Shown in pieces: positions 4,680-64,000 of a stretch of 64,000 nt of DNA. The stretch covers positions 15,001 through 79,000 of the forward strand of contig NZ_CP159403.1 in assembly GCF_040500525.1 (NCBI RefSeq). Direction: 5' to 3'. Position 1 is the first letter of the stretch. Every line of letters starts with the position of its first letter. A program made the translations under genes and the position numbers. Under the pieces are notes generated by a model. It ran no database searches and was not told the origin of the DNA. It was given only the letters and a program-made list of their open reading frames with translations. The DNA is from Azospirillum formosense. Its GTDB lineage: Bacteria; Pseudomonadota; Alphaproteobacteria; Azospirillales; Azospirillaceae.

Positions 4680-4821
4680 CCCTCTCCCGCCCCGGGAGAG
4701 GGAAGGGGCCCACGCAAAGCGTGGGAAGGGTGAGGGTACCGGCAATGGGCAGGGCCTTGATTCTCGGACGACCCTCACCCGGCGCCTGCGGCGCCACCCT
4801 CTCCCGGGGCGGGAGAGGGAA
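4680..4821. repeat. Intergenic palindromic repeat element, copy 1
   Basis: An element of about 140 bp is bounded by the self-complementary block CCCTCTCCCGCCCCGGGAG plus AGGG and an inverted version of it. Internal inverted blocks AGGGTGAGGGT and ACCCTCACCC enclose a short variable core. Two related copies occur at 25324-25469 and 57824-58024. It looks like a REP/MITE-type non-coding repeat that can fold into a long hairpin; it encodes nothing. Confidence 0.85.
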
Positions 4822-25323: not shown

Positions 25324-25469
25324 CCCCTCTCCCGCCCCGGGAGAGGGAAGGGGCCCACGCCGCAGGCGTGGGAAGGGTGAGGGTCGTTCGAGAATCAGCG
25401 CCTTGATTCTCGAACGACCCTCACCCGCCCGCTGTCGTGGGCCCCCTCTCCCGGGGCGGGAGAGGGGGG
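25324..25469. repeat. Intergenic palindromic repeat element, copy 2
   Basis: This is the clearest copy of the element. Terminal palindromes lie at 25324-25346 and 25445-25468. Inner inverted blocks, around the core TCGTTCGAGAATCAG and its near-complement, make almost the whole 145 bp foldable into one stem. It fills the space between cheD and the peptidase gene. Confidence 0.88.
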
Positions 25470-44845: not shown

Positions 44846-44852
44846 CGCCGGC

Positions 44853-46181: not shown

Positions 46182-46182
46182 G

Positions 46183-47907: not shown

Positions 47908-47916
47908 CGGTCCGCG

Positions 47917-48678
47917 TCACTCCGCCAGCCAGGAGTCGAGGATGCGGGTGATCGTGCCGTTGTCGCGCAGCTTGACGAAGGCGGCCTGCAGCCGTTCGGC
48001 CTTCTCCTTGCGCGCCTTGGGCATGGCGATGTAGCGGGGGATCAGGCCGAGCGGCTTGGGCAGGACGCGCACGTCCTTCAGCCGCCCGTCCTGCTTGGCC
48101 ATGTGGTTCAGCACATGCAGGTCGCCGACGATCACGTCCACCCGGCCCAGGATCAGGCGGCGGAAGTTGACCACGTTGCTGCTCGACGGGATCTTTTCCA
48201 GATAGGTCGCGGCGTCGAAGTCCGGCGCGTAGGCGAAGCCGTCGACCACGCCGATGCGGTAGGGGGTCAGGTCCTCCAGCCGCTCGAAGGCGATGGGGGA
48301 GTCCTTGCGCACCATGAAGACGGTCGTGCCGGTGCGGAACGGGCCGATCATGTTGTATTGCGCGAAACGGGCGGGCGAGGCGATGAACTGGAACCCGACG
48401 TCGGCGGTGTTCTCGTCCATCGACCGGACGACCTCGGTCCAGGACAGCGGCCGGTGGACCGGGGTGATGGTCAGCTCCTTCAGCAGGGCGACGACGATCT
48501 CGGTGTCGATCCCCGTGCGGGTGCCGTTGAAGGAGTAGTTGTAGGGCGGGAAATGATCTTCCGACGCGATGGTCCAGTATTCGGCGCGCGCCGGGAGAAC
48601 CGCGGCGAACAGCGCCAGCAGGACCGGCAGCAGGAGCCGCAGCGCCGGGCGGAGGACGGACGCCGTCGCCGCCGTCAT
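47917..48678 (-). CDS. Periplasmic solute-binding protein, family 3
   Basis: A 253-residue protein with a signal peptide ending near Ala32 (LPARA) and a PBP-II fold of the amino-acid-binding type (ASEDHFPPYNYSFNG, ADVGFQFIASPARF, YRIGVVDGFAYAP). No importer permease is encoded nearby, so it may act as a sensor or chaperone for the exporter rather than in uptake. ATG 48678 overlaps the stop of the 56-residue gene (ATGA). Confidence 0.87.
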   Translation of the reverse strand: MTAATASVLRPALRLLLPVLLALFAAVLPARAEYWTIASEDHFPPYNYSFNGTRTGIDTEIVVALLKELTITPVHRPLSWTEVVRSMDENTADVGFQFIASPARFAQYNMIGPFRTGTTVFMVRKDSPIAFERLEDLTPYRIGVVDGFAYAPDFDAATYLEKIPSSSNVVNFRRLILGRVDVIVGDLHVLNHMAKQDGRLKDVRVLPKPLGLIPRYIAMPKARKEKAERLQAAFVKLRDNGTITRILDSWLAE

Positions 48679-48845
48679 GCCTTCGCCCGCTTCTTGGCGC
48701 GGGTGGTCAGCAGGATCATCACGAGAAGGGCGCCGGGCGGTGTCAGGACCACCGCCAGGAAGGCGTAAAGCAGGAAGCCGCCGCGGCGGCCGATCCCCAG
48801 AAACCCGACCAGCAGGCAGAGACCGATGTAGATCAGCTCGAACAC
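48675..48845 (-). CDS. Small 56-residue two-helix membrane protein
   Basis: GTG 48845 opens a 56-residue frame with GAGGGAAG about 7 nt upstream. Two hydrophobic helices (LIYIGLCLLVGFLGIG and LLYAFLAVVLTPPGALLVMI) are followed by a basic tail TTRAKKRAKA. Its stop overlaps the next start by 4 nt, and the spacing to DUF697 (42 bp) is operon-like. It belongs to no family I know. The basic end should lie in the cytoplasm. Confidence 0.78.
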   Translation of the reverse strand: MFELIYIGLCLLVGFLGIGRRGGFLLYAFLAVVLTPPGALLVMILLTTRAKKRAKA

Positions 48846-48887
48846 GGCGATGCTTCCCTCTTTGCCCGGCGCCCCGGCGTCGTGCCC

Positions 48888-49403
48888 TTAGCCGGCCTTC
48901 TGGACCGGCTGCTCTTCCATCTGCGGCGCGGCGGCCGGAGCCTCGCCGGCCTCGTCCTTGGCGGCCTCGTTCCGGGCGGCCTCGAACTCCTTGCGGAAAT
49001 GCTCGCGCATCGCCTCGACGTCGAAGTCCAGCAGCGTGCCGCCGGTCTCGAAATGCTGCGCGAACACGCGGCCGAGCGCCTGGGTGGCGGCCAGAGACAG
49101 GGCCGGCATGACGGCGACGCCCAGGGCGGTGCCGATGAACGGAACGGCCTTCACGGCGGAGCCGAGCACGCTGGAGCTGAGCGCGCCGGGCATGACGCCG
49201 CCCATCAGCGCGCCGATGATCGCGCGGGTGCGCTCCTGCGCGAACTCGATCTCATAGAGCTTGGCGAGCTTATGGATCAGGTTGAGCTGGGCCACGCTGA
49301 CCGCGGCGACGTCCGCGCCGGGAACGGGGATGAGTCCGAAGGCGCCCGAGGCGTAGCTGTGGTACTTGATCAGTTCCTGGGCGCGCTTCTTGCGGTCTAC
49401 CAT
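48888..49403 (-). CDS. DUF697/YcjF-type membrane-associated protein
   Basis: The 171-residue protein matches the pattern of DUF697: SYASGAFGLIPVPGADVAAV, LAKLYEIEF, RAIIGALMGGVMPG and VPFIGTALGVAVMPALSL. Two hydrophobic segments may insert into the membrane. An acidic/Ala/Pro tail closes it. In many genomes the domain accompanies dynamin-like or small GTPases, but no GTPase is here. It is the first gene of the ten-gene minus-strand run, preceded by AAAGG and an AT-rich region. Confidence 0.8.
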   Translation of the reverse strand: MVDRKKRAQELIKYHSYASGAFGLIPVPGADVAAVSVAQLNLIHKLAKLYEIEFAQERTRAIIGALMGGVMPGALSSSVLGSAVKAVPFIGTALGVAVMPALSLAATQALGRVFAQHFETGGTLLDFDVEAMREHFRKEFEAARNEAAKDEAGEAPAAAPQMEEQPVQKAG

Positions 49404-49784: not shown

Positions 49785-52700
49785 CTACCTTTGCGGGAAG
49801 CGAACCGGCAGGTCGAGGGCGCGCGCCGGAAGCTCGTTGCGCGTTCCGGCGCTGATCGCCGCCCCCAGGACCAGGACGGTGTCGCGCACCGGCTGTCCGT
49901 CGATGGTCTGCGTCGGCAGGGCGACGCGCAGCAGCAGGCCGTCCCGCGACGACGACGGGGCGTGGCCTTTCAGCAGGCGCAGCAGCGCCCACGGCCCGCG
50001 TTCCGCCAGGGTGATGGTGTCGCCGGTCGCCGCGGCGGTTCCGCCCGCCGGCGCGCCCTTCGGACGGAAGGGCGACCCGGCGGCCCAGCGGGCGCTCAGC
50101 AAAACCGGCTGGCCTGGCGTCCAGGCGAGCGTTCCGCCGTTGGCTGCCGCGCCCACCGCGCTGGAGCCGGAGCGCACCGACCAGTCGATGATGTGCTCCG
50201 CCCCGACCTCCTGCGCGCGGTTGGCGCCGTAGGTGAGGCGGACGCCGACCGGCGCTGGGCGCGCGACGGCTTCCAGCAGGGGGCGGGCGGCCTCCATCCG
50301 CTCCATGAAGGCGGCGACCTCGGGGGTCGCGGTCCGCATCACCGCCGCCCGGTGCTCGTCGAGCTGCCGGTAGAAGCGGCGGACGTCCTGCGGGTCGGCG
50401 TCCGGCGCGCCGCGCGCCTGTTCGGAGCCGACGAAGGGGAAGCGCCCGGCGAGGGTCTGCGCGAAGGCGGCGGACAGCTTCGACAGGGCGACGTCGCTGT
50501 CCGGGATCGTGGCCTCCACCGGCGGTCGGGGCGGGATCGGCAGATGCGCGACGACGGCCGGCTCCTCTGTGATGGCGGGCGCGACGGCGGGCGGCGGCGC
50601 CACGGGGTCCGGCGAGGGGCGCGCGGCAGGCGGAGCCGCCGCGACGGGCTTGGCCGGCTCGGCTTCGGGCGCAACGGGCTTTGGTTGCGCAGGCTTGGCT
50701 TCGGCGGGTTTGGCTTCGGCGGGCTTGGCTTGTTCAGGCTTCGGCGGCTCCGGCTTCGGCTCGGCCGGCTTGGCAACCACGGCGGGCGGAGCCTCGGGAG
50801 CCGGTGCGGGCAGGGCGGCGGCCAGGGCGTCCGGCAGCGCGATCACCGCCGGGTTCAGGGTCAAGGCCCCGCCCTCGCCCACCGCGAACAGGGCGCCGGT
50901 CTGCGGCGCGTCCAGCGCCAGGACGGCGGCGCGGGCGCCGGTTGCGGCGGTGGACAGGGCCTCGGTGATGCGGTCGGTGGTGTCCCGGCCCGGCAGATCG
51001 GCGATGGCGGCCTTCTGAAGCACCACACGGATCGCGTCGGGCAGGCCGCGGGCGGGGTCCTGCAAGGCACCGGCGATGGGCCAGGCGACGGCCTCGGCGA
51101 CGGCGCCGGTCAGGCGGCGGACGTCGTCGACGTCCTCGGCGGTCGGCGCCTCCGGCAGGCCGCGCAGCCGCTCGGCCAGGGCCTCGGCGCGCTGGCGGAG
51201 CGGGTTGCGGCCGTACAGCTCCTCGGCCAGCGGGGCGGCGAGCTGCACCGATTCCGCGCGCACCGCCGCGGCGATGGTCCGGGCGTCGAGGTTGGGCAGG
51301 TCGGCGCCCGCGGCGATGCGCGTGATGTAGCCGTCCGTCGCCGTCATCGGCGAACGGGGGACGGCGCCGTAGACGCTTTCGGCCAGCGCGTTCAGCTCGT
51401 CGAAGCCGCTGTTGCGGCGGAAGCGGTCGTAGCGCTCTAGCGCGTCGCGCCGCCCGCCGATGCGGTCGAGCTGCTCGGCGAGGCGGCGGAAGGCGGGCAG
51501 GTCTTCCACCCGCTGCGGGTTGGCCACCGGCGGCAGGTCGGCCATGGTGGCGCTGGGCAGCAGCGCGTCACGGATCGGCCGCAGCACCGAGCGGCGCAGC
51601 GTGACCGAGGCGAGCCGCTTCTTGTCCTCGTCGAAGGCGCTGAACAGCGAGGTCGGCAGCAGCGGCGTGGCGAGGGGACTGCGCTCCATCACCGCCGTGG
51701 CGGCGATCACGTGCCCGACCAGAGGCCCGTCGGTCACGGCGTCGCGCGCCAGCAGCGCCCGGCGGAGGTCGGCGGTGGCGGCGGCGACCGGCGGGCTGCC
51801 GGCGGACACGCTGGACACGCCCTGCCACGCGGCGACCGACAGGCCGGCGACCGAGGCGGCGAGCGCCGCCTGCGCCATCCGGCGGCGCTTGTGGGCCTGC
51901 TGGTAGGCGGCGTCGGACGGCCGCCCATAGCCGGCCTCGGCGAAGGCCCGGCCCGGCAGCAGGTCGCGGGCGAAGACCGGACGGCGCCCGCCAGTGGCCG
52001 GGGCGTAGGCGCCGGTCAGGGCGATGCCGCGCAGCGGGAAGGGCTCCGCCTGATCGTCGCCGCCTCCATCTCCTCCCAGGGCGCCGTCGAGGAACAGCGC
52101 CAGCGGATGGCGCAGCGTGTCCAGGGACGCCGGCAGCAGCGGCAGGCGCACCCCGGCGGTGCCGGCGGCGAAGGCGTCGGCCTCCAGAACGGCGATGTCG
52201 GCGGCGATGGCCTCGAACGCCTCGTCGATGCGGCGCGGCTCGAAGGGCTTCGCCCAGTCCTGCGGGTTGGTCCATCCCAGCACGCCGTCCAGCAGGGCCG
52301 ACGGCATGGCGGCGCAGAGGTCGGCGAAGCCGTCCAGCGCCTCGGCGCGAACCACGACCACATGCACGGGGGCGACCACGCCGAGATCGTCGCGCAGGGT
52401 CCGCAGGCGCTCCCGCAGGGCGGCGCCCCGCTTGGCCAGCGCGTCGCGCGGGCCATGGTGCTTGGCGGGGCGCTCGGCGGCGGCGCTCAGCTCGTCGGCG
52501 CCGACCATCAGCAGGACGCCGTCCAGCGGGCGGCGCATCGGCCGCTTGCGCATCGCCGCGACCAGCGCCGGCCAGGACGCGCCCAGCCGGGAGCCGTCGG
52601 CGGAATCGGCGCCAGCGTGCAGGATCGCCGCCCCTTCGCAGAACCACCAGCAGCCGTTCTCGCCGTTGCCGTCCTCGGGCCAGCGGACATGGGTCGGGTC

Positions 52701-53120
52701 GGTGGCGAGCAGGGCCGGGCCGCCGACGCCGAAGGCGAGGAACCACGGGATGTCGCCGCGGCGCAGGGGACCGCGCATCTGCCGCGTCAGGATGTCCAGC
52801 CCCTCGCCGTAGATGCGGGCGTTGGGCGGCGTGTCGGCGGCGGCCTTCTTCGGCGGTGGCACCTCTGCGCGGACGCGCAGCGGCGCTGGCGGGGCGGTCC
52901 GGCGCGCGGGCGCCTTCTTCCGGACGGTGCCCTTGGCGGCGGGCTTGCGCCGCCAGCCGCGCAGCGTCGGCCAGACCATCCGGCCGAGGCGGTAGAAGAT
53001 GTAGAGCGGCAGCGCCAGCAGCGCGTAGGGCGCCAGCGTGACGGCGAAGGACAGCAGAGTGACGATGGCGGAGCCGATGGTGGAGAGCACCAGCTCCAGC
53101 GTGAGCATCAGTAGGACCAT
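49785..53120 (-). CDS. Divergent TssM/IcmF-like protein without Walker A
   Basis: The 1111-residue protein has the TssM architecture. An N-terminal membrane hairpin (6-45) is followed by a cytoplasmic domain (PWFLAFG, CWWFCEGAAIL, PLDGVLLMVGADEL, APVHVVVVRAEALDGFADL). A third helix lies at about 413-438, then a large periplasmic region. Its C-terminal end holds the TssM-type ARW...GPWALLRLLKG block. The nucleotide site is lost: where TssM has GxxGSGKT/S, this has GVGGPALLAT (131-140). A Pro/Ala/Lys-rich insert (about 768-843, with KPAEAKPAEAKPA repeats) interrupts the periplasmic part. It overlaps the TssL-like gene by 13 nt. Confidence 0.83.
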   Translation of the reverse strand: MVLLMLTLELVLSTIGSAIVTLLSFAVTLAPYALLALPLYIFYRLGRMVWPTLRGWRRKPAAKGTVRKKAPARRTAPPAPLRVRAEVPPPKKAAADTPPNARIYGEGLDILTRQMRGPLRRGDIPWFLAFGVGGPALLATDPTHVRWPEDGNGENGCWWFCEGAAILHAGADSADGSRLGASWPALVAAMRKRPMRRPLDGVLLMVGADELSAAAERPAKHHGPRDALAKRGAALRERLRTLRDDLGVVAPVHVVVVRAEALDGFADLCAAMPSALLDGVLGWTNPQDWAKPFEPRRIDEAFEAIAADIAVLEADAFAAGTAGVRLPLLPASLDTLRHPLALFLDGALGGDGGGDDQAEPFPLRGIALTGAYAPATGGRRPVFARDLLPGRAFAEAGYGRPSDAAYQQAHKRRRMAQAALAASVAGLSVAAWQGVSSVSAGSPPVAAATADLRRALLARDAVTDGPLVGHVIAATAVMERSPLATPLLPTSLFSAFDEDKKRLASVTLRRSVLRPIRDALLPSATMADLPPVANPQRVEDLPAFRRLAEQLDRIGGRRDALERYDRFRRNSGFDELNALAESVYGAVPRSPMTATDGYITRIAAGADLPNLDARTIAAAVRAESVQLAAPLAEELYGRNPLRQRAEALAERLRGLPEAPTAEDVDDVRRLTGAVAEAVAWPIAGALQDPARGLPDAIRVVLQKAAIADLPGRDTTDRITEALSTAATGARAAVLALDAPQTGALFAVGEGGALTLNPAVIALPDALAAALPAPAPEAPPAVVAKPAEPKPEPPKPEQAKPAEAKPAEAKPAQPKPVAPEAEPAKPVAAAPPAARPSPDPVAPPPAVAPAITEEPAVVAHLPIPPRPPVEATIPDSDVALSKLSAAFAQTLAGRFPFVGSEQARGAPDADPQDVRRFYRQLDEHRAAVMRTATPEVAAFMERMEAARPLLEAVARPAPVGVRLTYGANRAQEVGAEHIIDWSVRSGSSAVGAAANGGTLAWTPGQPVLLSARWAAGSPFRPKGAPAGGTAAATGDTITLAERGPWALLRLLKGHAPSSSRDGLLLRVALPTQTIDGQPVRDTVLVLGAAISAGTRNELPARALDLPVRFPQR

Positions 53121-53836
53121 GACAGCCCCATGTCCTCGACCGCGGCGCGGGCGCCGCTCAGATCGCGTTGGATGCCGCCGACGGCGCCGGCCCACAGCAG
53201 GTGCGAGACCACCAGGAACAGCACGGCGGTCCCGCCGACCGCCCACCACCAGCGGCGTGCGGACGGCGCGGGGTAGCCGGGCACGGCGCCTTCCGGCGGC
53301 TCGCAGGCGCGCGGGCTGGGGTGGCTGGCCGCGGCGCGCTCGCCGACGACGATGCGGTGCAGGGCGGGGCGGCGGGCGGTCGCCTGGGCGTCGTCGGGAA
53401 AGCCCAGAGCCAGCGCCGCGAGATAGACGGCGGCCAGCCCGCGGTCGGCCTTGGCGCCCTGGCGGATCAGGTCGTCGGCCTGGACGAACAGGGTCTGCAG
53501 CGTGGCGTTCGCGCCGAACAGACGGCTGGAGACCACGGCGTCGGCGGGCCGCGTCTGGGCCAGCGCGCGATCGGCCAGCATGGCCATGGCGAAGGCCGCC
53601 TTGACCACCGTGCCGTGCGCGCCCGGCCCCTGCGAGACGGCGGCGCCGCTCATCCCGTGGAGCGTCGCGGTCAGGCGGTCGGCCACCGTCCCCGCCGGGG
53701 CCTGCGCGTCGGCGCAGCCGGCGAGCAGGTCCTCCTGGAAGGCGCGGAACAGGGCCAGCGTGCCGGCGGGCTTGCTCCCGGCGGGCATGGCCTTCGGTGC
53801 AGGGGCGGATTGGGCCGCAGCGGTTTGGGTGGTCAC
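53108..53836 (-). CDS. Divergent TssL/DotU-like protein
   Basis: The 242-residue protein has a helical cytoplasmic domain and one C-terminal membrane helix at about 201-220 (WWWAVGGTAVLFLVVSHLLW). The domain shows the DotU pattern: KAAFAMAMLADRALA, LFGANATLQTLFVQADDL and AAVYLAALALGFPD. The tail-anchored topology is that of TssL. A short Pro-rich stretch precedes the helix. GTG 53836 overlaps the TssJ-like stop (GTGA). Confidence 0.78.
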   Translation of the reverse strand: MTTQTAAAQSAPAPKAMPAGSKPAGTLALFRAFQEDLLAGCADAQAPAGTVADRLTATLHGMSGAAVSQGPGAHGTVVKAAFAMAMLADRALAQTRPADAVVSSRLFGANATLQTLFVQADDLIRQGAKADRGLAAVYLAALALGFPDDAQATARRPALHRIVVGERAAASHPSPRACEPPEGAVPGYPAPSARRWWWAVGGTAVLFLVVSHLLWAGAVGGIQRDLSGARAAVEDMGLSWSY

Positions 53837-54306
53837 GGCGTTCCCTCCGTCAGCGGAGCCACGGTGAAGCTGTCCCGTCCCAGCCGCACGTCCAGGGCGC
53901 CGGCGCCGTCCAGACTCTGCCGGTGGGCGCCGGACGCGCCGTACCGGGCGTAGACGAGGGTTCGGGTCGGGGTGGCAGGAGATGGAGCGAAGGGAGGCAG
54001 GCTGTGCAGCAGCACGCTCTGGCCCGGCACCATCTCCCAGGAGGCGATGGCGATGCGGTTGCCGGCCTCGGCGCTCAGCGCCTCGCGGTCGCGGAACCAG
54101 CCGGCGGCGTCGAGACCGGCCAGCCGCCCGGCCAGCGCCGGATCGGCCACCCGCACCACGTCGACGGCGACCGGGCGGCGCCCGTTGGCGTCGGGCTCGG
54201 CGACGATGCGCAGCACGGGGGCGTCGGCGCGCCCCGCGCCGGGCGTGGGGACGCCCGCGGCGCAGCCGGCAAGCGTCAGGGACAGGATGATCGCGAGGCG
54301 CTTCAT
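53833..54306 (-). CDS. Putative TssJ-like outer-membrane lipoprotein
   Basis: The 157-residue lipoprotein has the lipobox LAGC (Cys15). A compact beta-rich domain follows, with RRPVAVDVVRVADPALAGRL, WFRDREALSAEAG and VPGQSVLLHSLPP. The order of basic strand, DxxALxxE-type segment and PGQ turn recalls TssJ/SciN, but similarity is weak. Assignment leans on its place directly before TssL- and TssM-like genes. ATG 54306 is preferred, with GAGG 11 nt upstream, over GTG 54315. Confidence 0.62.
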   Translation of the reverse strand: MKRLAIILSLTLAGCAAGVPTPGAGRADAPVLRIVAEPDANGRRPVAVDVVRVADPALAGRLAGLDAAGWFRDREALSAEAGNRIAIASWEMVPGQSVLLHSLPPFAPSPATPTRTLVYARYGASGAHRQSLDGAGALDVRLGRDSFTVAPLTEGTP

Positions 54307-54319
54307 GTCAGCCACCGCC

Positions 54320-54715
54320 TCAGCCCCCGCCGCCGGGCGCCGACTGGCCGACGCAGACGTAGCCCGCCGGGGTATGGCGGTACCAGTTGCCGGTCGCCTC
54401 GGCGCAGGGGGCGAGGACGCGGTCGTTGCGCTGCGGCTCCGCTGCCGCCGGGGCCGGGGCGGGGTCCATTTCCCGGCCTGTGGCGGGACGGTTGGTCACG
54501 ACGAAGCCGTCCTCGTCCTCCTCCACGATCATCACGTAGCGCGCGCGCTTGGCGGGGTAGCGGATGCCCACGTCGTAGTCGCCGTCGGCCACCTTCTCCA
54601 GGATCGCGCCGGGGCGGTCGCCGCCCAGCGGCGCGCAGCCCGTCCCGGCGAGCAGGACCGGCAGCAGCGCCGTCGCGGCGATCAGGGTTCGCATCATCGG
54701 GGTGTTCCTGCTCAT
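54320..54715 (-). CDS. Small lipoprotein, unknown function
   Basis: The 131-residue protein has a lipoprotein signal with lipobox GTGC near residue 27. Its body has a strand-rich region (DYDVGIRYPAKRARYVMIVEEDEDGFVVTNRP), a Pro/Ala linker, and two cysteines (LAPCAEATG, YVCVGQ) that could form a disulfide. I do not recognise the family. ATG 54715 overlaps the channel gene stop by 4 nt. It sits between the channel fusion and the TssJ-like gene, and could bridge them. Confidence 0.7.
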   Translation of the reverse strand: MSRNTPMMRTLIAATALLPVLLAGTGCAPLGGDRPGAILEKVADGDYDVGIRYPAKRARYVMIVEEDEDGFVVTNRPATGREMDPAPAPAAAEPQRNDRVLAPCAEATGNWYRHTPAGYVCVGQSAPGGGG

Positions 54716-57700
54716 GCCGGAATCGCCTTGCGCTGGGCGTTGATCGCGGCGGCGGGGCCGGCGGCCTCCATCAGGTCGGGCGGGGTCGGTTCGATGCCGG
54801 CCTCGGCCAGCGTCCGGTAGACGGAGCGCCAGACCAGCTCGGGCACGACGAAGCTGGCGTCGTAGTCCTCGACCCAGAAGAACAGGTTGTACTTGCACAG
54901 CCATTGGCCGTTGACGCCGCGGATGCCGTCGTAGCGGACGAAGGGCGGGCCGCCGGTGGCGCTGGGCATCACCTTGTCGGCGTTCTGCAGGGCGGTGGTC
55001 AGCAGGCCGCCCATCTGGCCGGGGTCGTGGCGGGCGTCGGCGTAATATTCCAGCTTCATCGACACCCGCTCGACCGCGCTGAAGTTGACGACGGTCGCCT
55101 CCGACACCTTGGCGTTGGGCATGGCGACGATGAAGCCGGCGACGTTGCGGATCCGCACCGTGCGCCACGTCATGTCGACCACGACGCCGCGCACCAGATC
55201 GGTGATCTGGATGCTGTCGCCGATCTGGAACGGCCGCTCGATGTTCAGGACGATGCCGGAGAAGACGTTGGCGATGTTCGCCTGGATGGCGAGGCCGATG
55301 ACCATGCCGACGAGGCCGGAGGCGGCGAGCAGGCTGGTGATCGGCTGCTTCAGCACGAAGGCGATGATGCCGCAGCCGGCGAAGCCGAAGACGATCAGGG
55401 TCGAGAAGCGGCGGACGATGCCGGGAATCTTGCGCTGGGTGCGGATTTCCAGCGGGGTCCAGACGAAGCGTTCCAGCGTGCGGTCGACCAGGATGGCCGG
55501 CACAATCCACCACAGCACGTTGACGCCGTTCACCACCATGGCGATCCCGCTCGGCGGCAGCGTCGCCACCGCCTGGTCCAGCGCGATGTTGCCGGCGGAC
55601 ATCAGCAGCAGCGGCCAGGACAGAATGCGCATGAACAGCGTCTGGATCTTCCAGAACTGGCCGCGGTCGCGGCGGTCCATGACGGCGGCGAAGACCGCCA
55701 GCACGGCGCTGAAGATGGCGATGTAGACGAAGAAGTCGCGGTGGATGAAGTCGCGCGCCGCCGGGGCGTCCGGGGTGGCGACCACGCCGAAATCGACCCG
55801 CGAGAAGTCCGGCTGCGGGCGCCCGAAACCGACGTAGTTGGGATCGCCCTCGCTGCCGACCGAGGCGACGTCCTGCGAGATCCAGGCGCGCGACAGCCGC
55901 CAGCCGGGCGACGGCGCCAGCACCCGCTTGGCGCGGAGCTGGTCGAGCAGGGTGGAGCTTTCGCTCTCGCCCTCCAGCGCGCGGCGGAAGCGGTCGGCGA
56001 GGCCGGGATCGACGGCGGACGCGGTTTCCGCGGCGGCCATCGCCTTCAGCTTCTCCACGAAGTCGTTGGTGTCGACCAGCGACATGCCGAGAACGTCGGT
56101 GACGAACATCACCGTGTTCCGGTTCTGCGTCCGGTGGCGGAAGCTGACGCCGACCGTCTGGCTGCCGTAGGGCGGGCGCTGGTCGAAGACGTTCAGGGCG
56201 AAGCGCCCCTCGATCCGGTAGGCGACGTAGGTGGTGACCTCGCCGCGCTCCTCGCGGTAGGGCTTGCCCAGCTCGACCGGCTTGACCGCGTTGGTGAAGA
56301 CGACGTCCGCCGGGTTGAAGGCGCCGCGGTAGCGGAACCAGATCGTCAGGTTCAGCGTCGCCTCGTTGGCGTCCGGATTGAGGTCACGGATCTCGTGGAG
56401 CTGGACGCCGGTGTAGATGACGTCCGTCTTGTACATGAAGCGGTCGTTGACGTAGAGCGCCCGGCCCTTGGTGACCTCCTCCAGGAAGTTGGAGACGCCG
56501 GCCTCGCGGATCGGCTGGAGCTGGGTCAGCGCCGCCACCGGGTTCAGGCCGTTGTAGGAGGCCATCATCACCGGCAGGGTCGCTTGGCCCCGCGCGTCAA
56601 AGGTCCAGGTGCCGACCGTGCCCTGGAAGGCGGTCTCGGCGCGGTCGTGGTCGGCGATGGCGCGGCGGAGCGCCTCGCCGTCCGGCTTGCCGGCGGCGGT
56701 ATTCGTTTTAGCGATGGCTCCGGCTATGAGGTCCACGCCGTCGGCGCCCAGCGCCGCCGCCCAGTCGGGCACCGCGTTGAAGCGCTTCACATACTGGCCG
56801 TAGAAGCGCTGCGCCCGCTCGTTCGCCGTGTCGAACAGCACGGGCGAGGACACCAGCAGGCCGTGGCCGTAGGCCTCCGGCGTCAGCGCCTTGGGGTTGG
56901 CCTGGGCCTGGGCGACGATCTCGGTGCGGAAGGCCGACGAGGCCATCTCCGAGCTGCCGGCGATCAGGTTGCGCACCCCGGCGTCGCGCAGCGCCACCAC
57001 CACCCGCGCGCTGTCCACCGCCGACCCGATGACGATGACGGCGCCGGTCGGCATCTTCTCCTTGACCGCTTGGGCCAGCGCCGGCAGGGCGCCGGCACCG
57101 CCGCGGCCCGGCGCGAAGGTCCACTGGCCGACCAGCCTGGTGCCGAAGCGCTGGAGGATCGCGTCGAACTGCCCGGCCTGGAATGCTGCCTGCTCGCTGT
57201 CCTCGCGGACGATGGCGACGGTCGGCTCGCCCACCACGTTGCGCACGTAGTTGGCGAGGAAGCGCGTCTCGTGCGTGCGGTCCAGCGTGATGCTGAACAG
57301 CCAGGGGCTGGGCGCGGCGTCCGCCGGGCGGACCAGCGGGCGCGGGGCGATCAGCGGGATCTGCCGCTGGGCGTAGATCGCCGTCGCGCTGTCGGCGGCG
57401 TCCGGCGTGTGGCCGATCACCGCGAGGACCGAGGGATCGTTGGAGACGCGCCGGGCGATCTCCAGCGACTTGCCCTTGTCGCCCTCGTCGTCGAAGGGCT
57501 TGACCACCACGGGACGGCCGGCGACGCCGCCCGCCGCGTTGATGGTGTCGGCGCGCAGCGCCGCCCCCTTGCGCAGGGCCAGCCCCAGCGCCGCGTCCGG
57601 CCCGCTGAGCGGCCCGACGACGGCGACGGTCAGCGGCTCGCGCGCGCTGTCGCCGAGGAAGCCGGCGCGGACGACCAGGGAGACCAGCACGGTGACGAGC

Positions 57701-57795
57701 ATCGCCGCCGCCAGGATCAGCGCGAAGCGCGCCTTTTTGGTCAGGTGCGACCAGCGCAGCGGCGGCCGGGAGCGGGGCTGGAGCGAGCTCAGCAT
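54712..57795 (-). CDS. Ligand-binding/MscS channel fusion protein
   Basis: The 1027-residue protein joins several modules. An N-terminal membrane anchor lies at 23-45. A type I periplasmic-binding domain of the branched-chain amino acid receptor kind follows (about 53-430; LTVAVVGPLSGPDAALG, IGHTPDAADSATAIYAQ). A beta-rich domain at about 445-610 (KTDVIYTGVQLHEIRDLN, TIWFRYRG, YRIEGRFALNVF, PPYGSQTVGVSF) resembles the extracellular domain of pentameric ligand-gated channels. Four or more helices come next (about 690-860). An MscS pore and beta domain (822-1015; GLVGMVIGLAIQANIANVFSG, RPFQIGDSIQI) ends it. It looks like a ligand-gated or ligand-modulated small-conductance channel. ATG 57795 has no open neighbour before it; a repeat element lies upstream. 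Confidence 0.87.
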   Translation of the reverse strand: MLSSLQPRSRPPLRWSHLTKKARFALILAAAMLVTVLVSLVVRAGFLGDSAREPLTVAVVGPLSGPDAALGLALRKGAALRADTINAAGGVAGRPVVVKPFDDEGDKGKSLEIARRVSNDPSVLAVIGHTPDAADSATAIYAQRQIPLIAPRPLVRPADAAPSPWLFSITLDRTHETRFLANYVRNVVGEPTVAIVREDSEQAAFQAGQFDAILQRFGTRLVGQWTFAPGRGGAGALPALAQAVKEKMPTGAVIVIGSAVDSARVVVALRDAGVRNLIAGSSEMASSAFRTEIVAQAQANPKALTPEAYGHGLLVSSPVLFDTANERAQRFYGQYVKRFNAVPDWAAALGADGVDLIAGAIAKTNTAAGKPDGEALRRAIADHDRAETAFQGTVGTWTFDARGQATLPVMMASYNGLNPVAALTQLQPIREAGVSNFLEEVTKGRALYVNDRFMYKTDVIYTGVQLHEIRDLNPDANEATLNLTIWFRYRGAFNPADVVFTNAVKPVELGKPYREERGEVTTYVAYRIEGRFALNVFDQRPPYGSQTVGVSFRHRTQNRNTVMFVTDVLGMSLVDTNDFVEKLKAMAAAETASAVDPGLADRFRRALEGESESSTLLDQLRAKRVLAPSPGWRLSRAWISQDVASVGSEGDPNYVGFGRPQPDFSRVDFGVVATPDAPAARDFIHRDFFVYIAIFSAVLAVFAAVMDRRDRGQFWKIQTLFMRILSWPLLLMSAGNIALDQAVATLPPSGIAMVVNGVNVLWWIVPAILVDRTLERFVWTPLEIRTQRKIPGIVRRFSTLIVFGFAGCGIIAFVLKQPITSLLAASGLVGMVIGLAIQANIANVFSGIVLNIERPFQIGDSIQITDLVRGVVVDMTWRTVRIRNVAGFIVAMPNAKVSEATVVNFSAVERVSMKLEYYADARHDPGQMGGLLTTALQNADKVMPSATGGPPFVRYDGIRGVNGQWLCKYNLFFWVEDYDASFVVPELVWRSVYRTLAEAGIEPTPPDLMEAAGPAAAINAQRKAIPA

Positions 57796-57823
57796 GGGGT
57801 GTCCGTTTGGCGTTGGGCGGCTT

Positions 57824-58024
57824 CCCTCTCCCGCCTCGGGAGAGGGAAGGGGCCCGCGAAGCGGGAAGGGTGAGGGTGAGTGCAAGGATCAGGCGGTCGC
57901 GCCGTTGGACGACCCTCACCCTCCCGCGCTTCGCGCGGGTCCCTCCCTCTCCCGGGGCTCTCGGCGGCCAAAGGCCGCCTGACGCCGTCAGCGCCCGCAA
58001 GCGGGCGCGAGAGGCGGGAGAGGG
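57824..58024. repeat. Intergenic palindromic repeat element, copy 3 (longer)
   Basis: This is the longest copy, about 200 bp. It has the same outer blocks (CCCTCTCCCGCCTCGGGAG plus AGGG at the left, inverted at the right), and an extra inserted stretch in its right half (GGCGGCCAAAGGCCGCC). It lies between the MscS-fusion gene and the type I adaptor gene, and may separate the two transcription units. Confidence 0.8.
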
Positions 58025-58051
58025 AAATGGTGGCAACCGGTCCGGCCATCC

Positions 58052-59452
58052 TCATTGCTCCTGCATCGCGTGCTGGAGGCCGTTGAGGACCGGCGAGAAC
58101 ACGTAGTCGAGGATGGTGCGCCGCCCGGTCAGGATGCTGCAGGTCACGCGCACGCCGGGGAACAGCTCGTAGGTCTTGCCGCCGTAGTCGAAACGGGTCA
58201 CCGGCAGCTCGACGCGGACCTTGTAGTAGGACTGCTTGTTGGCGTCGAGGAGCGTGTCGGGGCTGATCGTCCGCACCCGCCCCTCGATGTGGCCGAAGCG
58301 CGAGGCGTCGCCGCCGGCCAGCGTCACCACCACCGGCTGGTCGGGGCGGACATAGCCGATGTCCTGCACCGGCAGGCGGGCGTCCACCACCAGCTTGCCG
58401 TCGCGCGGCACCAGCTCCACCACCGTCTCGCCGGCCTTGACCACAGCGCCCTTGGTGGAGACGGCCAGCGTCTTGACGATGCCGTCCATCGGGGCCCGCA
58501 GGCTGCTGCGGTCCAGGCTGTCCTGGTAGCGGGTCAGGCGCTGCGACAGCTCGTCGTGGTTGCGGCGGGCCTCGTCGAGGGCGTTGCGGCTCTCCTCCTC
58601 GTACTTGCGGCCGATCCACACCAGCTTGCTGCGCGCCTCGGCCAGCGCCGCCTCGGCCTGGGCCAGCGTGGCGCGGTCCTCGGCGATGGCGCTGCTGACG
58701 CGGGCGTCGTCGCGCAGCAACTCCAGATGCTTCATGCGGTTGGTGATCTCGCGCTTCAGCAGGGTCTCGCTGATGGAGAGCTGCTCGCGGATCAGCCCCT
58801 GCGCCACCTGGGAGCCGCCGATGCGCGCCCGCACGGCGGCCACCTGCTGCTCGCGCTGGGCGATGTCCTGGCGCTGGATGTCGAGGTCGGAGGCCAGCCG
58901 GTCGCGGCGGGCGCGGAACAGGTCGCGGGTCTGCGCCACCAGATCGGGCCGCTCGCGCAGCAGACGGTCGGGGAAGGCGATGGTCTCGCGGCGCCCGACC
59001 TCCGCTTCCAGCCGCGCGGTGTCGGCCGACAGCGAGCCGAGGCGCAGCTTCAGCTCCTCCAGGTCGGCGCGGATCTTGGTCTGGTCCAGCTCGACCAGCA
59101 CCTGTCCGGCGGTGACCGAATCGCCCTCCTGAACCAGGATGTCGCGGACGATGCCGCCCTCGAAATGCTGGACCGACTGGTTGTAGGACAGCGGCACCAC
59201 GTCGCCGGGCGCGCTGCTGGAAACGTTCAGCTCGGCGATGGCCGCCCAGCCGAGCGCGGCGAGGAAGGCGGCGATGCTGACGACGAACAGGCCGTCGCCG
59301 AACCGGCTTTCGCTGTCCGTGGGCGACGACCCCGTCAGGGAGGCCGGAAGGGCGGTCGGGATGCCTGTCGTGCCGGTGGTTGGGATGACCGGCGGCACGG
59401 CGGGAGCCGGGCCGGCGGCCGGCTTGCGGGTCAGCAGGGGAAGCGGCTTCAT
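58052..59452 (-). CDS. Type I secretion periplasmic adaptor (HlyD family)
   Basis: A 466-residue membrane-fusion protein has a membrane helix at about 53-70 (VSIAAFLAALGWAAIAELN). A lipoyl-like beta half (PGDVVPLSYNQSVQHFEGGIV, VQEGDSVTAGQVLVELD) is followed by a long coiled coil (about 120-300). The C-terminal HlyD signature reads LRAPMDGIVKTLAVSTKGAVV and ELVPRDGKLVVDARLPVQDIGYV. It links the ABC exporter to TolC. It overlaps the ABC gene by 4 nt (ATGA). Confidence 0.94.
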   Translation of the reverse strand: MKPLPLLTRKPAAGPAPAVPPVIPTTGTTGIPTALPASLTGSSPTDSESRFGDGLFVVSIAAFLAALGWAAIAELNVSSSAPGDVVPLSYNQSVQHFEGGIVRDILVQEGDSVTAGQVLVELDQTKIRADLEELKLRLGSLSADTARLEAEVGRRETIAFPDRLLRERPDLVAQTRDLFRARRDRLASDLDIQRQDIAQREQQVAAVRARIGGSQVAQGLIREQLSISETLLKREITNRMKHLELLRDDARVSSAIAEDRATLAQAEAALAEARSKLVWIGRKYEEESRNALDEARRNHDELSQRLTRYQDSLDRSSLRAPMDGIVKTLAVSTKGAVVKAGETVVELVPRDGKLVVDARLPVQDIGYVRPDQPVVVTLAGGDASRFGHIEGRVRTISPDTLLDANKQSYYKVRVELPVTRFDYGGKTYELFPGVRVTCSILTGRRTILDYVFSPVLNGLQHAMQEQ

Positions 59453-61131
59453 GGCGTCACCAGCCCCGCCGGCTCGCGGGCGGCCACGGTGCCGTTCGGT
59501 TGGTCGAGGTCGAGCACCAGCGAGGCGCCCTGGAGGATGCGCGGGTCGTGGGAGGCGATGATCACCGTGTGGCCGCTCCGCGCCAGCTCGATCAGCGTGC
59601 GGTAGACGGTGGCGGTGCCCTCGGAATCCAGCCCGTCGGTCGGCTCATCGAGCAGGATCAGCCGGCCGCCGACCGCCAGAGCGCGGGCCAGCGCCAGCCG
59701 GCGGCGGTGGCCGGTCGGCAGCTCGTGGCCGAAGTTGCGCAGCGGCGTGTCGAGCCCCTGGGCGCAGTCGGCCACCGTGCGGTCGGCCCCGGCGCGGTGC
59801 AGGACGGCGTGCAGCTCCGTCTCCGACAGGCGCGGGTTGGCGAGCAGCAGATTCTCGCGGATCGTCCGGTTGAGGAACACCGGCTCCTGCGGCAGCAGCC
59901 CGATCTGCTGGCGCCACCAGGAAGGGGCGAATTTGCGGATGTCCACGCCGTCGGCCAGCACGGCACCCTCCTGCGGGTCGGCCAGACCGGCGATCAGGCG
60001 GATCAGCGTCGATTTGCCGGAGCCGTTGCGGCCCTTCAGCACCAGGATGTTGCCGGCGGGCACCGACAGGTTGAGACGGCGCAGCAGCGGCGTGACGCCG
60101 CCCGGCGGGGTGAAGGTCAGGTCGCGCAGCTCCAGCGAGCCGGCGTAGCGGGGCAGACTGGTGCCGCCGGTCGGCTCGACCGCGGTGCGGGCGAACTGCT
60201 CCAGACGGACCTGCGCCTGACGGGCCATCGCCAGGGACTCGCCGATCTGCGCCAGCCGCGTGAAGGGGGCGAGCGCGCGGCCGACCAGCAGGTTGATGCC
60301 GATCAGCGAGCCGACGTCCAGCTCGCCGCGCACCACCAGGACGGCGCCGGTGGCGATCACCGCCACGCCCTGGAGCGCCTGGAGGCTTTGCGCGGCCGAC
60401 TGGGCGCGGCCCTGGCGCATCGACATGCGCTCGCGGACCACGCGCAGGGCCTTGGCCGCGCGCTGCCAATCGCCGAGAAGCGGCTTGGCGCCGCCGAACA
60501 GGGCGACCGCGTCGCGCCCGACGATGGCGGTGGTGACCAGCCCCTGGGCGTCGGCGCCGGCCTGGGCGAGGTCGCGCCCGACCGCCCGCATGTCCGCCTG
60601 GGCCAGCAGCCCGGCGGCGATGGCCAGCAGCGTGAAGACGAGGCAGATCGCCGCCAGCGGCCAGGAGATCAGCGCCACCACGAGGATGAAGCCGAGCGCG
60701 AAGGGCAGGTCGAACAGCGTCGCCAGATTGGCGGAGCCGAGCGCGGAGTCGATCTGCTCCGGCGCCCGCAGCGCCTCGCGCCGCGCCGCGTCGCCCTCGG
60801 CCGACCCGGCGCCGCTGCGCGCGGTCATCAGGATGCCGAAGGCCCCGGTGCTCAGGCGTTCGTGCTCGGCCCGCCCGATGCGCCCGGCGATGCCCAGCCG
60901 GACATGGCGGAACAGATGCTCGAAGGCGATGGACAGGACGACGCCGACGGTCAGCGCCGCCAGCGTGGAATCGACGCCGTGCGTCACGTAGCGGTTCAGC
61001 ACCAGCATCGTGTAGAAGGACGAGGCCAGCCCGAGCAGGTTCGCCGCCAGCGACGCCGCGAAGACGCGGGCGGTCAGCCGCAGGTTGGCGCGCAGCCGCA
61101 GCGCGAGAAGCCCGATGGCGCCGCCGTTCAT
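59449..61131 (-). CDS. Type I secretion ABC exporter
   Basis: A 560-residue half-transporter has six helices and no N-terminal C39 or C39-like domain. Its ATPase has Walker A GRNGSGKST, Walker B LILLDEPTDGLD and H-loop ASHD. The signature is LPTGHRRRLALARAL in place of LSGGQ, an uncommon variant. It exports a protein with an uncleaved C-terminal signal, most likely the large protein encoded at 62660-64000. It overlaps its TolC gene by 4 nt. Confidence 0.93.
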   Translation of the reverse strand: MNGGAIGLLALRLRANLRLTARVFAASLAANLLGLASSFYTMLVLNRYVTHGVDSTLAALTVGVVLSIAFEHLFRHVRLGIAGRIGRAEHERLSTGAFGILMTARSGAGSAEGDAARREALRAPEQIDSALGSANLATLFDLPFALGFILVVALISWPLAAICLVFTLLAIAAGLLAQADMRAVGRDLAQAGADAQGLVTTAIVGRDAVALFGGAKPLLGDWQRAAKALRVVRERMSMRQGRAQSAAQSLQALQGVAVIATGAVLVVRGELDVGSLIGINLLVGRALAPFTRLAQIGESLAMARQAQVRLEQFARTAVEPTGGTSLPRYAGSLELRDLTFTPPGGVTPLLRRLNLSVPAGNILVLKGRNGSGKSTLIRLIAGLADPQEGAVLADGVDIRKFAPSWWRQQIGLLPQEPVFLNRTIRENLLLANPRLSETELHAVLHRAGADRTVADCAQGLDTPLRNFGHELPTGHRRRLALARALAVGGRLILLDEPTDGLDSEGTATVYRTLIELARSGHTVIIASHDPRILQGASLVLDLDQPNGTVAAREPAGLVTP

Positions 61132-62525
61132 CGCTGGTCTCCCGTGCCGCGCCGGCCCGGATCGCGTCCGCCTTGATCGCGGAAAGCGCCGCGGCCCATC
61201 GGGGCCAGCTTCGGCATCGGCTTGGTCTGGATGTCGGTGGCGTTCAGCCGGCCCATGGCGGCGAGCAGACGGTAGCCGGCCAGCACCAGTTCCGTCTCCG
61301 CCGCCGCGGCGTCGCTGCGCGCGTTGATCAGCGTCGTCTCGCCCGACAGGATGTCGATCAGCGACCGGGTGCCCAGCTCGCGCTCCGACCGCGCCACGTC
61401 GAGGAAGCCGGCAGCGAGGCTCGCCTGATCGTTCAGCAGCTGCACCTGGGCGCGGGCGCTTTCCAGCCGGTTCCAGCTGTTGCGGACGGTCTCCAGCACC
61501 GTGCGCTCCTGGTCGGCCCAGCTGGCGTCCGCGGCCCGCAGGTCGGCCTCGGCCAGCCGGATGCTGTTGAGCGCGGTCAGGCCGGTGTTCAGCGAGAAGG
61601 TGACCTGGAGCTTGAACAGCAGCTCGTTCTGCCGCCCCGGCTGGCCGGCGACGTCGCGCTTGACATTGCGCTCCACGAAGCCGTCGATCCGCGGGTAGAG
61701 CGTGCGGCCGCGCACCGAGGTCACCGCCTCCTGCGCCGCCGCGGTGGTCAGGGCCAATTCCTGAAGGCGCGGGTTGTGGCGGCGCGCCTCCTCCACCGCC
61801 GCGTCCATCGAGACGGGCAGGCCGGCGCGGGTCATCGCCAGGACCTGGGCGTTGCCGACCTGGAAGGGAACATGGCCGAAGAAGGCCTGGAAGCGGCTGA
61901 GCGCGTTCTGCGTCGCCTCCTCCGCCGCGACGCGGCGGGCCTGGGCGCCGGCGAGCTGGCTCTTGGCCTGGAGCACGTCGGTGGAGAAGCCGAAGCCCTC
62001 CTGAAGGCGGACCTCCTCCAGCCCGGTCTGGCGGCGGATGTTGTCTTCGGACTGGCGCGCGAAGGCGAGCAGCTGATGGGCGCGGACGAGGCTGGCGTAG
62101 GCGGTGAGGCCCTCCACCAGCAGCTCCTGCCGGGTGCGCTCCACCGCGATGTCGGCGCGGACCAGCGTCACCTGGGCGCGCCGGATGTCGGCGTTGGTCG
62201 CGTCGAAGTCCCAGATCAGCTGCGTCGCCCGCGCCGAGAACTGCGAGGCGTTCATGTCGGTGTTGGGCAGGCCCGCCGGCTTGGTCGTGCTCTCGCGCCC
62301 GCCGTTCGCCGACAGGCTCAGCGTCGGGTACCAGCCGCCATGGCTGACCCGCAGGGCGTTGCGCGCCCCGTCGGCGGCGGCCTCCGCCCCGCGCAGGCGG
62401 TCGTGGCTCTCCGTCGCCTTGCCGATCAGCGCCACAACCTCATCGCGCGGTGCTGCAACCAGAGATTGTGGTGCTCCGGTCAGAAGCGGAAGCGCAACCG
62501 TGGCGATAAGACAAAACTTGTGCAT
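61128..62525 (-). CDS. TolC-family outer-membrane channel
   Basis: A 465-residue outer-membrane efflux protein has a signal peptide (MHKFCLIATVALPLLTGA). Two internally repeated long helical halves (GWYPTLSLSANGG, GFSTDVLQAKSQLAGAQARR; SIRLAEADLRAADASWADQ, LGTRSLIDILSGETTLINAR) are typical of type I secretion TolC proteins. A basic Gly/Arg tail ends it. It is the first gene of TolC-ABC-HlyD, an order seen in adhesin-exporting systems. Confidence 0.93.
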   Translation of the reverse strand: MHKFCLIATVALPLLTGAPQSLVAAPRDEVVALIGKATESHDRLRGAEAAADGARNALRVSHGGWYPTLSLSANGGRESTTKPAGLPNTDMNASQFSARATQLIWDFDATNADIRRAQVTLVRADIAVERTRQELLVEGLTAYASLVRAHQLLAFARQSEDNIRRQTGLEEVRLQEGFGFSTDVLQAKSQLAGAQARRVAAEEATQNALSRFQAFFGHVPFQVGNAQVLAMTRAGLPVSMDAAVEEARRHNPRLQELALTTAAAQEAVTSVRGRTLYPRIDGFVERNVKRDVAGQPGRQNELLFKLQVTFSLNTGLTALNSIRLAEADLRAADASWADQERTVLETVRNSWNRLESARAQVQLLNDQASLAAGFLDVARSERELGTRSLIDILSGETTLINARSDAAAAETELVLAGYRLLAAMGRLNATDIQTKPMPKLAPMGRGAFRDQGGRDPGRRGTGDQR

Positions 62526-62659
62526 GAGGGTCCTGGAGATCGCCGCATGACTAGGCCGTTCGGCCTAAAGCGATGATGATCTTAGTCGAGAACTCTCATA
62601 CTCATTTAGGACAAAACAGTATCCAAATACCTAAAAATGCGACGAATTTTGTCAGTCAT
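62526..62659. other. AT-rich spacer before the type I secretion genes
   Basis: These 134 bp separate the large secreted protein from TolC on the minus strand. They are locally AT-rich and hold a perfect 7-bp hairpin TAGGCCG/CGGCCTA (62552-62567). The space could hold a promoter for tolC or a partial terminator controlling adhesin-to-exporter ratio. No gene is visible. Confidence 0.55.
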
Positions 62660-64000
62660 TCATGAATTTTCTGCGACCGGCACAATCGTCGATGCATGGG
62701 TTGTGGCGTGGTGTGTGTCCGCGCTGTGAACGGCCATTGCCCAATCCCCCGCGTGCGCATCCAGACCATTCTGCACAACCGGAACGGTGTCCGGCAGCCC
62801 CAGCCCGGAGGAGAGCAGCGCCGCGTAGTCGAAGCGCCCGTGATCGGCCTGCGGCGAAGGCGACGCGGCCAGCGGCTGGCTGTGCAGCTGCGCCGCGACG
62901 GTGGCCTGCGCGTCGAAGGCGACGCCGGCCACCAGGCGGCTGCTGCCGTCGGCCATGGTCATGCTGGTGGTGCCGAGGATGTGGTTGCCGGCCAGCGTCG
63001 TGTCCGCCGGGGTGGCCGTGGTGGCGATGGACAGGATTCCGGCCTCGGCCAGCGTGCGCAGCTCGCCCGGCTGGCTCACCCCGTCGCCGTCGGCGTCCTG
63101 CCAGACCTGGAGCGTGGCGAAGCTCTCGTCCGCGGCGTCGATGCGCCCGTCATGGTTGCTGTCGAGCGAGGCGAGCGCCTCCAGGCTGCTGTTGAAGCCG
63201 CCACCGTTCGAGCCGGCTCCGAAATGCTCCGACACGAGTTCGCGTCCGTCGTCGATCCGCCCGTTGTGGTTGTCATCGCGCACCAGCAGCGCGTTACCCT
63301 TGCCGACCCAGCCGGTCCGGTCTGCCACGCCGTCGCCGCTGACGTCGAACAGGACGCCGTCCGTCAACGCCCGCAGGGCCAACCCGTCGCCGGCCATGTC
63401 CAGCACGATGGGGTCGCTGGCCACCGTGGTCAGCTTGACGTTGTCGATGCGCAGCACCGGGTTGACGCTGTTGTCGCTGGTGTCGGAGGTGCCGAAGCCC
63501 AGCGACAGGGTGCTGTTGGCCGGGATGACCACGCTGAACTTGCCGCTGGCGCTCGCGTCCTTGGCGAGCAGCGTGACCACGCCGTTGACGCTGACGAAGG
63601 CGAAGTCGTGATAGCCCGGGTCCGAGAAGATGAAGGTCCAGTCGAAGGTCAGCGTCGTGTCCTTCGCCACCGTGACGGTGCTGGCCAGCTTCATCGCGTG
63701 GCCGAAGGACGGGACGGTGCCGGTCGCCGCCGCGATGGAGCCGTGGGCGAGGCCGAGGAAATCCTCGAGTTGGGTCGGCGTCCGGCCGCCCGCCGAAGTC
63801 AGGGTGCCTTCGTGCCCGTCGCCGGTCGCGCCCACCGTGGCCCCGCCGGTGTAGCTCCAGCCGGTCAGCCCCTTGTCGAAGGAGCCGTTGGGGATCAGCA
63901 CGCCGGGATGCAGGGTGACGGTGTCCGTCGCGGCGGAGAAGGCGCTGCCCTCGCCGAGGGTGATGGCGGTCTTGGAGCCGGCGCTGCCGGTGGTCTGGTC
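62660..64000 (-). CDS. Large type I secreted protein, C-terminal part (runs off the window)
   Basis: The frame is open to the window edge, so only the last 446 residues are seen. Near the start is a carbohydrate-binding-like beta sandwich (VLIPNGSFDKGLTGWSY). After it come calcium-binding Asp-rich motifs of EF-hand or dockerin type: DVSGDGVADRTG, DDNHNGRIDDGREL, DSNHDGRIDAADE and DADGDGVSQPGEL. A His/Ala/Ser-rich end (HSADTHHATTHAS) follows, with no Cys, suiting an uncleaved C-terminal type I signal. It is probably an adhesin or surface protein exported by the adjacent system. Confidence 0.83.
   Translation of the reverse strand, partial: DQTTGSAGSKTAITLGEGSAFSAATDTVTLHPGVLIPNGSFDKGLTGWSYTGGATVGATGDGHEGTLTSAGGRTPTQLEDFLGLAHGSIAAATGTVPSFGHAMKLASTVTVAKDTTLTFDWTFIFSDPGYHDFAFVSVNGVVTLLAKDASASGKFSVVIPANSTLSLGFGTSDTSDNSVNPVLRIDNVKLTTVASDPIVLDMAGDGLALRALTDGVLFDVSGDGVADRTGWVGKGNALLVRDDNHNGRIDDGRELVSEHFGAGSNGGGFNSSLEALASLDSNHDGRIDAADESFATLQVWQDADGDGVSQPGELRTLAEAGILSIATTATPADTTLAGNHILGTTSMTMADGSSRLVAGVAFDAQATVAAQLHSQPLAASPSPQADHGRFDYAALLSSGLGLPDTVPVVQNGLDAHAGDWAMAVHSADTHHATTHASTIVPVAENS

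Follow-up and report, generated by a model that had tools for sequence, protein, structure and literature searches.

Fusions of a type I periplasmic binding protein (PBP) with a pentameric ligand-gated ion channel (pLGIC) were described in 2004/2005 in M. magnetotacticum and B. japonicum (Tasneem et al., PMC549065; see also PMC12664993), and the earlier proposal for the role of bacterial pLGICs is chemotaxis (PMC549065). Besides type I adhesins, Lap control of surface adhesins also covers a type Vb adhesin of P. aeruginosa (PMC13090378). In this study we analyzed a 64-kb stretch of the 6.1-Mb genome of Azospirillum formosense (G000:C2:15001-79000, hereafter the window), in which the gene of a predicted receptor-channel lies beside the genes of a type I exporter and a giant adhesin. 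We propose that this locus is an adhesion island, whose core combines the giant adhesin and the machinery that exports it with a dedicated receptor-channel in the inner membrane. Taken jointly with the mechanism given below, we assign this reading a probability of roughly 55%. In the open-licence literature, Cys-loop receptor domains have so far been described on their own four-helix pore, and neither a PBP/Cys-loop/MscS protein nor a linkage between channel and adhesin was found described there.

Architecture of the receptor-channel

The channel gene and its parts (aa, amino acid positions) are as follows.

54712..57795, minus strand: receptor-channel of 1,027 aa, with PBP type I, Cys-loop receptor-like extracellular domain and MscS pore
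56557..57636, minus strand: LivJ-type periplasmic binding domain, aa 54-413 (PF13458 118.7 bits; Foldseek 4gnr E 6.9e-22)
55771..56460, minus strand: Cys-loop receptor-like beta-sandwich, aa 446-675 (bridge proteins, hhalign, fold search)
54787..55740, minus strand: five membrane helices and MscS beta/cytoplasmic domain, aa 686-1003 (PF00924 58.3 bits; PRK10334; structure model)

Pfam recognized PBP_6 (aa 54-413) and MscS (aa 841-906) and left the stretch between them unmatched. The top PDB match of the periplasmic binding domain was of the LivJ type (4gnr). Its pocket residues were compared with those of LivJ-type proteins, and the loops were too variable to name a ligand. The pore has the third transmembrane helix (TM3) and beta domain of MscS, with a PF00924 score above the cut-off of 20.2, and positions 27-216 of PRK10334 (E. 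coli MscS) aligned to aa 753-943 of the channel. The four-helix pore of pLGICs (PF02932) gave no match in the window channel, even at E 10.

The middle domain of the window channel was not recognized by Pfam even at E 10, and sequence profiles of this domain alone gave nothing meaningful against the PDB, so that bridge proteins, hhalign and a fold search were required for its identification. Two relatives of the same family (L063 and L064) carry the same PBP and the same next domain, followed by a pLGIC pore at the end. BLAST aligned them to approximately aa 80-567 of the window channel (E 1e-29 and 1e-27), and the C-terminal part of L064 matched solved bacterial pLGICs, including ELIC, with weak PF02931/PF02932 matches. 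The hhalign comparison of 54 family members with an Azospirillum pLGIC (L066) gave a probability of 94% (E 1.2e-7, 116 columns). The isolated middle domain was modeled by AlphaFold with a predicted local distance difference test (pLDDT) score of 73.7, and all 50 rows listed by Foldseek for it were acetylcholine-binding proteins or nicotinic receptors (best E 7.8e-10). VIA-align superposed it on the GABA-A receptor beta3 (Z 15.5, root-mean-square deviation 2.6 A, 154 residues) and on ELIC (Z 15.4). In the full-length model (pLDDT 79.5), an anchor helix stands at the N-terminus, the PBP and the sandwich come next, and five membrane helices lead to the cytoplasmic part of MscS. All of the 55 family members compared have an unchanged WFR motif in the sandwich.

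Judged by the bridge proteins, the profile comparison and the models, the gap between PBP and MscS is filled by a domain that has the extracellular fold of Cys-loop receptors (pLGICs). In relatives, both of these sensor domains sit on a genuine pLGIC pore, so the pore of the window channel is a swapped one. A preliminary description, made from the letters of the window, had read the protein as a ligand-gated channel. The Cys-loop receptor domain had been missed.

Azospirillum tabaci and A. brasilense have channels 98% identical to that of the window. A further channel clade of about 28% identity (L056-L062) has a C-terminal cyclic-nucleotide-binding domain added in L057 (L057:8553-11873, PF00027 65 bits) and L062 (by alignment), so that signals from either side may gate the same pore there. 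In L057, the channel relative has two genes of pLGIC homologues nearby. A separate pLGIC homologue (L150:7580-8581) was also annotated in Sulfuritalea, shortly downstream of a PBP/Cys-loop/MscS channel gene.

Linkage of the channel with giant adhesins

The scan of the genome collection returned 228 channel relatives, and 80 loci were fetched, spanning Alpha-, Beta- and Gammaproteobacteria, Magnetococcales and Desulfamplus. Exporter genes were scored by tblastn at more than 100 bits each and giant open reading frames (ORFs) by a compositional test. Loci with at least 6 kb on each side and no masked sequence were counted as well-flanked (n = 43). At L113 and L122 the sequence about 9.9 kb upstream of the channel reads N, which masks the upstream neighbor. 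All three type I genes were present in 37/43 well-flanked loci, and at least two of them or a giant adhesin-like ORF in 41/43. When the Azospirillum-type clade (channel identity 67% or more) was excluded, at least two exporter genes remained in 17 of 22 loci, and those or a giant ORF in 20 of 22. As a yardstick, the 6.1-Mb genome has six HlyD-type places, so that about 2% of random 23-kb stretches would include one. The loci are not independent, and no probability is attached to these counts.

The gene order varied among the loci: adhesin-TolC-ABC-HlyD-channel, channel-ABC-HlyD-TolC, channel-TolC-ABC-HlyD and a divergent arrangement (L109, L114) were seen. Within the genus, the whole order from the adhesin to the ABC exporter is kept. 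Magnetospirillum loci L116 and L118 have ORFs of about 3,150 aa that end just upstream of the channel, and that of L116 contains laminin G, immunoglobulin (Ig) and cadherin domains. No type I genes were found by tblastn at the betaproteobacterial loci, where a giant ORF ends just before the channel instead (L149, L150, L155, L161). In Rhodocyclaceae (L155), the channel follows a TPS-domain two-partner (FHA-type) adhesin, itself preceded by ShlB. Therefore, the constant partner of the channel is the large exported adhesin, whichever exporter carries it, and not a particular exporter. Nine loci of a distant channel clade (30% identity) had no type I trio. The preliminary description had named conservation of the gene order across genomes as a check on its proposal. 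The channel stays with the type I/adhesin genes as a single conserved unit well outside the genus, in several gene orders.

Gene content and borders of the island

The other features of the island are listed below, in the order of transcription.

62660..64000, minus strand: giant adhesin, C-terminal 446 aa in the window, with cadherin-like domains and, close to the C-terminus, two EF-hand-like loops
61128..62525, minus strand: TolC-type outer membrane factor of the type I exporter (PF02321 160.5 bits, TIGR01844 194.6 bits)
59449..61131, minus strand: LssB/PrtD-like ABC transporter of type I secretion that lacks the N-terminal peptidase-like domain (TIGR03375 352 bits, model matched from position 144 onward)
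58052..59452, minus strand: HlyD-type membrane fusion protein (TIGR01843 373.5 bits, cut-off 208.65)
57824..58024, no strand: palindromic repeat element in the HlyD/channel gap, whose core recurs four more times in the window
54320..54697, minus strand: lip1, small lipoprotein, which also adjoins the channel in G010
53833..54306, minus strand: lip2, TssJ-like lipoprotein, 38-41% identical to TssJ of complete type VI secretion system (T6SS) clusters
53108..53836, minus strand: TssL/DotU-like protein with one C-terminal membrane helix (PF09850 22.8 bits, below the cut-off of 27; 39% to G010 TssL, E 1.4e-35)
49785..53120, minus strand: TssM/IcmF-like protein without Walker A motif (PF14331 96 bits; E 1e-69 to G010 TssM)
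48888..49403, minus strand: DUF697 protein, with a counterpart in the Paracraurococcus island (L124, 51%)
47917..48678, minus strand: family 3 solute-binding protein, kept within the genus (PF00497 69.9 bits)
46183..47907, minus strand: ABC exporter (49% match in the Paracraurococcus island)
44853..46181, minus strand: Band 7/SPFH protein (71% match in the Paracraurococcus island)
43181..44845, minus strand: second ABC exporter (44% match in the Paracraurococcus island)

The channel gene stands between HlyD and lip1 in this row. The ABC transporter, HlyD, TolC and a large substrate together make a type I secretion system. Much of the preliminary description of this row held. All the genes that it named lie on the minus strand, with overlaps of 4 bp at TolC/ABC (61128/61131), ABC/HlyD (59449/59452) and lip2/DotU (53833/53836) and of 13 bp at DotU/TssM (53108/53120). 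Both breaks that it gave are present, at 62526-62659 between adhesin and TolC and at 57796-58051 between HlyD and channel, the latter containing the repeat. The two lipoproteins have the lipoboxes LAGTGC and LAGC. The gene set was likewise retained, while the border was moved: the island had been ended at 49785, and the conserved island reaches approximately 43181. The Paracraurococcus row (L124) consists of adhesin, channel, exporter, DUF697, ABC, Band 7 and ABC genes, without TssJLM and the solute-binding protein, so that window 43181-49403 belongs to the island in at least two families. The module of ABC exporter, Band 7 protein and ABC exporter is common to Azospirillum and Paracraurococcus (window 43181-47907 and L124:18517-22967). 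The promoter scan found none, with 0.5 expected, and the terminator scan gave no more terminators than expected by chance.

The extent of the adhesin was corrected. Its gene runs past the window edge to the equivalent of position 70417, and the whole protein has 2,585 aa, with cadherin-like domains and internal spacings of about 155 and 310 residues. The label "Ca-binding" has weak support from the two EF-hand-like loops (0.06 expected in shuffles), with Pfam EF-hand matches below the cut-off. An alanine-rich N-terminal domain (L034:8428-9418) is kept in the adhesins of Azospirillum and Arenibaculum at 40-86% identity. It is a candidate outer-membrane retention part without a LapG site.

The palindrome CCCTCTCCC...GGGAGAGGG occurred in five copies in the window against 0 expected, with sites at 4680-4819, 25325-25466 and 57824-57846. 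The HlyD-channel spacing is only about 50 bp in several relatives. From the copy number and these short gaps, the repeat between HlyD and channel looks like a dispersed intergenic element.

The three T6SS-like genes (lip2, TssL and TssM) are closer to TssJ, TssL and TssM of the T6SS clusters of G010 and G002 than to those of the window genome's own T6SS, lip2 having its best E-value with G002. In G010, a congener, the T6SS lies directly before the adhesin N-terminus, in one stretch with the exporter and channel, which makes capture from a neighboring T6SS a plausible origin of TssJLM. The Walker A motif is present in only some TssM proteins. The island TssM has GVGGP instead of GxxGxGKT, whereas TssM of the G010 and G002 clusters keeps GxGKT. 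With the N-terminal part of TssM as query, 21 genomes of the genus yielded window-type TssM (74% identity or more), and it adjoined the channel in all of them. G017 was the only other searched genome with the same channel type, and its contig ends within DotU. Outside Azospirillum, TssJLM was observed beside the channel in Skermanella (L100) and Arenibaculum (L101) only. Beyond the Azospirillum-type clade, 26 loci have the full set of three type I genes next to the channel and no TssJLM. G010 likewise has the exporter, channel and lip1, with no TssJLM downstream.

A functioning T6SS at the island was rejected, as no sheath (TssB/C), tube (Hcp), baseplate or ClpV was found among the island genes. 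A complete T6SS cluster is present elsewhere in the window genome (L066 and L162). It has TssJKLM, A and Hcp, with TssB/C, E, F, G, ClpV and VgrG in L162, and is kept in congeners (e.g., L163). A pLGIC homologue (L066:3259-4200, G000:C2 ~1,107,000; PF02931 32 bits) lies inside this cluster.

The preliminary description had joined the T6SS-like, channel and type I genes into one integrated envelope system. Independent occurrence of the parts, which it had named as the refutation, was found for TssJLM only, at the 26 loci and in G010, while the channel stayed with the type I/adhesin genes. TssJLM is therefore not a defining part of the channel family but a lineage-specific add-on and accessory, and what is left of the integrated system is a core of channel plus adhesin.

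Proposed role and comparison with known systems

In the proposed mechanism, the periplasmic binding domain would bind a small molecule, and the change would pass via the receptor-type domain to the MscS pore. The resulting ion or solute flux would alter export, surface display or retention of the adhesin. In Azospirillaceae, the added TssJLM probably connects the two membranes passively in the vicinity of the exporter. The channel-adhesin neighborhood suggests a so far undescribed control of attachment by chemical signals. We tentatively put forward a new class of ligand-gated channels, in which a PBP and a Cys-loop domain would gate an MscS-type pore whose ionic output controls giant type I or two-partner adhesins without LapD/LapG.

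Several points weigh against the adhesion-island reading. The classical pLGIC pro-loop FPFD is not kept, the consensus being R[PAS]YG. This loop couples the receptor domain to its own pore, and without it the domain may now be structural; its loss would also be expected if the receptor-type domain no longer contacts a pLGIC pore. pLGICs are pentamers whereas MscS channels are heptamers, and the channel was modeled as a monomer. Two loci (L158, L159) have no exporter or adhesin nearby. The giant ORFs were called by composition, with domains checked for a few only, and linkage does not give the direction of control.

The channel might also be an osmotic or chemical sensor of the same lifestyle (biofilm, root contact), sharing a transcription unit with the adhesin and not acting on it. 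Gene neighborhood is the sole tie between the two, and no shared domain or fusion of channel and adhesin was seen. We consider such co-regulation rather unlikely, as the linkage persists where gene order, strand and even the secretion system differ, which is more than a shared regulon usually keeps. That a type I secretion operon, a channel and an orphan T6SS remnant are adjacent by chance is very improbable. The absence of TssJLM from other lineages and the repeat that separates HlyD from the channel agree with it, but the 41 of 43 well-flanked loci that keep the channel with an exporter or adhesin contradict it for these two, and window-type TssM in the genus is found only beside the channel.

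Another explanation is that an adhesin held in the outer membrane passes contact force through its cadherin-like repeats to the MscS pore, with the sensor domains tuning the response; in Azospirillum, TssJLM would strengthen this mechanical link. MscS belongs to a tension-gated family, TssJLM spans the envelope in T6SS, the adhesins have cadherin-like or bacterial Ig repeats, and the partner that the channel keeps is the adhesin, not the exporter. Most loci lack TssJLM, however, so the trans-envelope link would need another partner, and the physical contact between adhesin and channel is hypothetical. We regard this explanation as improbable.

The same sensor pair on an unrelated pore means that receptor domain and pore are exchangeable in nature. 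The channel offers a system to study ligand-to-pore coupling with a foreign pore and poses the question of pentamer or heptamer. The adhesin neighborhood would give a bacterial receptor-channel a concrete role, and it hints at adhesion control by a route other than LapD/LapG in a root-colonizing genus.

Lap control proper was rejected because LapG is absent and the cleavage motif is not conserved. LapG (PF06035) was not found in the window genome, while the control search in Caulobacter did match, and a homologue was absent in 16/21 channel-bearing genomes. The LapD periplasmic domain (PF16448) gave no match, and its positive control gave none either. The adhesin N-terminus has no conserved [T/A/P]AAG site: TAAG at residue 53 was considered as a LapG site and rejected, as relatives L167-L171 do not share it at this position. 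The analogy with Lap systems drawn in the preliminary description therefore stands as one of logic. Like LapA/LapD/LapG and Dvh (PMC13090378), the island has a large type I adhesin, a dedicated exporter and an adjacent gene for an inner-membrane regulator. Channels that adjoin type I and two-partner adhesins also resemble Lap control that serves type I and type Vb adhesins (PMC13090378). Unlike in Lap, the inner-membrane partner here is a channel, and the window genome has no LapG homologue.

The TssJ-, TssL- and TssM-like genes stand in a row as in T6SS, whereas the island has no sheath, tube, baseplate or ClpV genes and its TssM lacks Walker A. The channel shares TM1-TM3 and the beta domain (PF00924, PRK10334) with E. 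coli MscS, to which it adds approximately 680 N-terminal, mostly periplasmic sensor residues and two helices before the MscS core. It shares with the PBP-I-pLGICs (PMC549065), of which L063 and L064 are direct homologues, a PBP type I followed by a Cys-loop receptor ligand-binding domain. The pore of those proteins is a four-helix pLGIC pore, whereas the window channel has an MscS pore, has lost the pro-loop motif and is linked with an adhesin.

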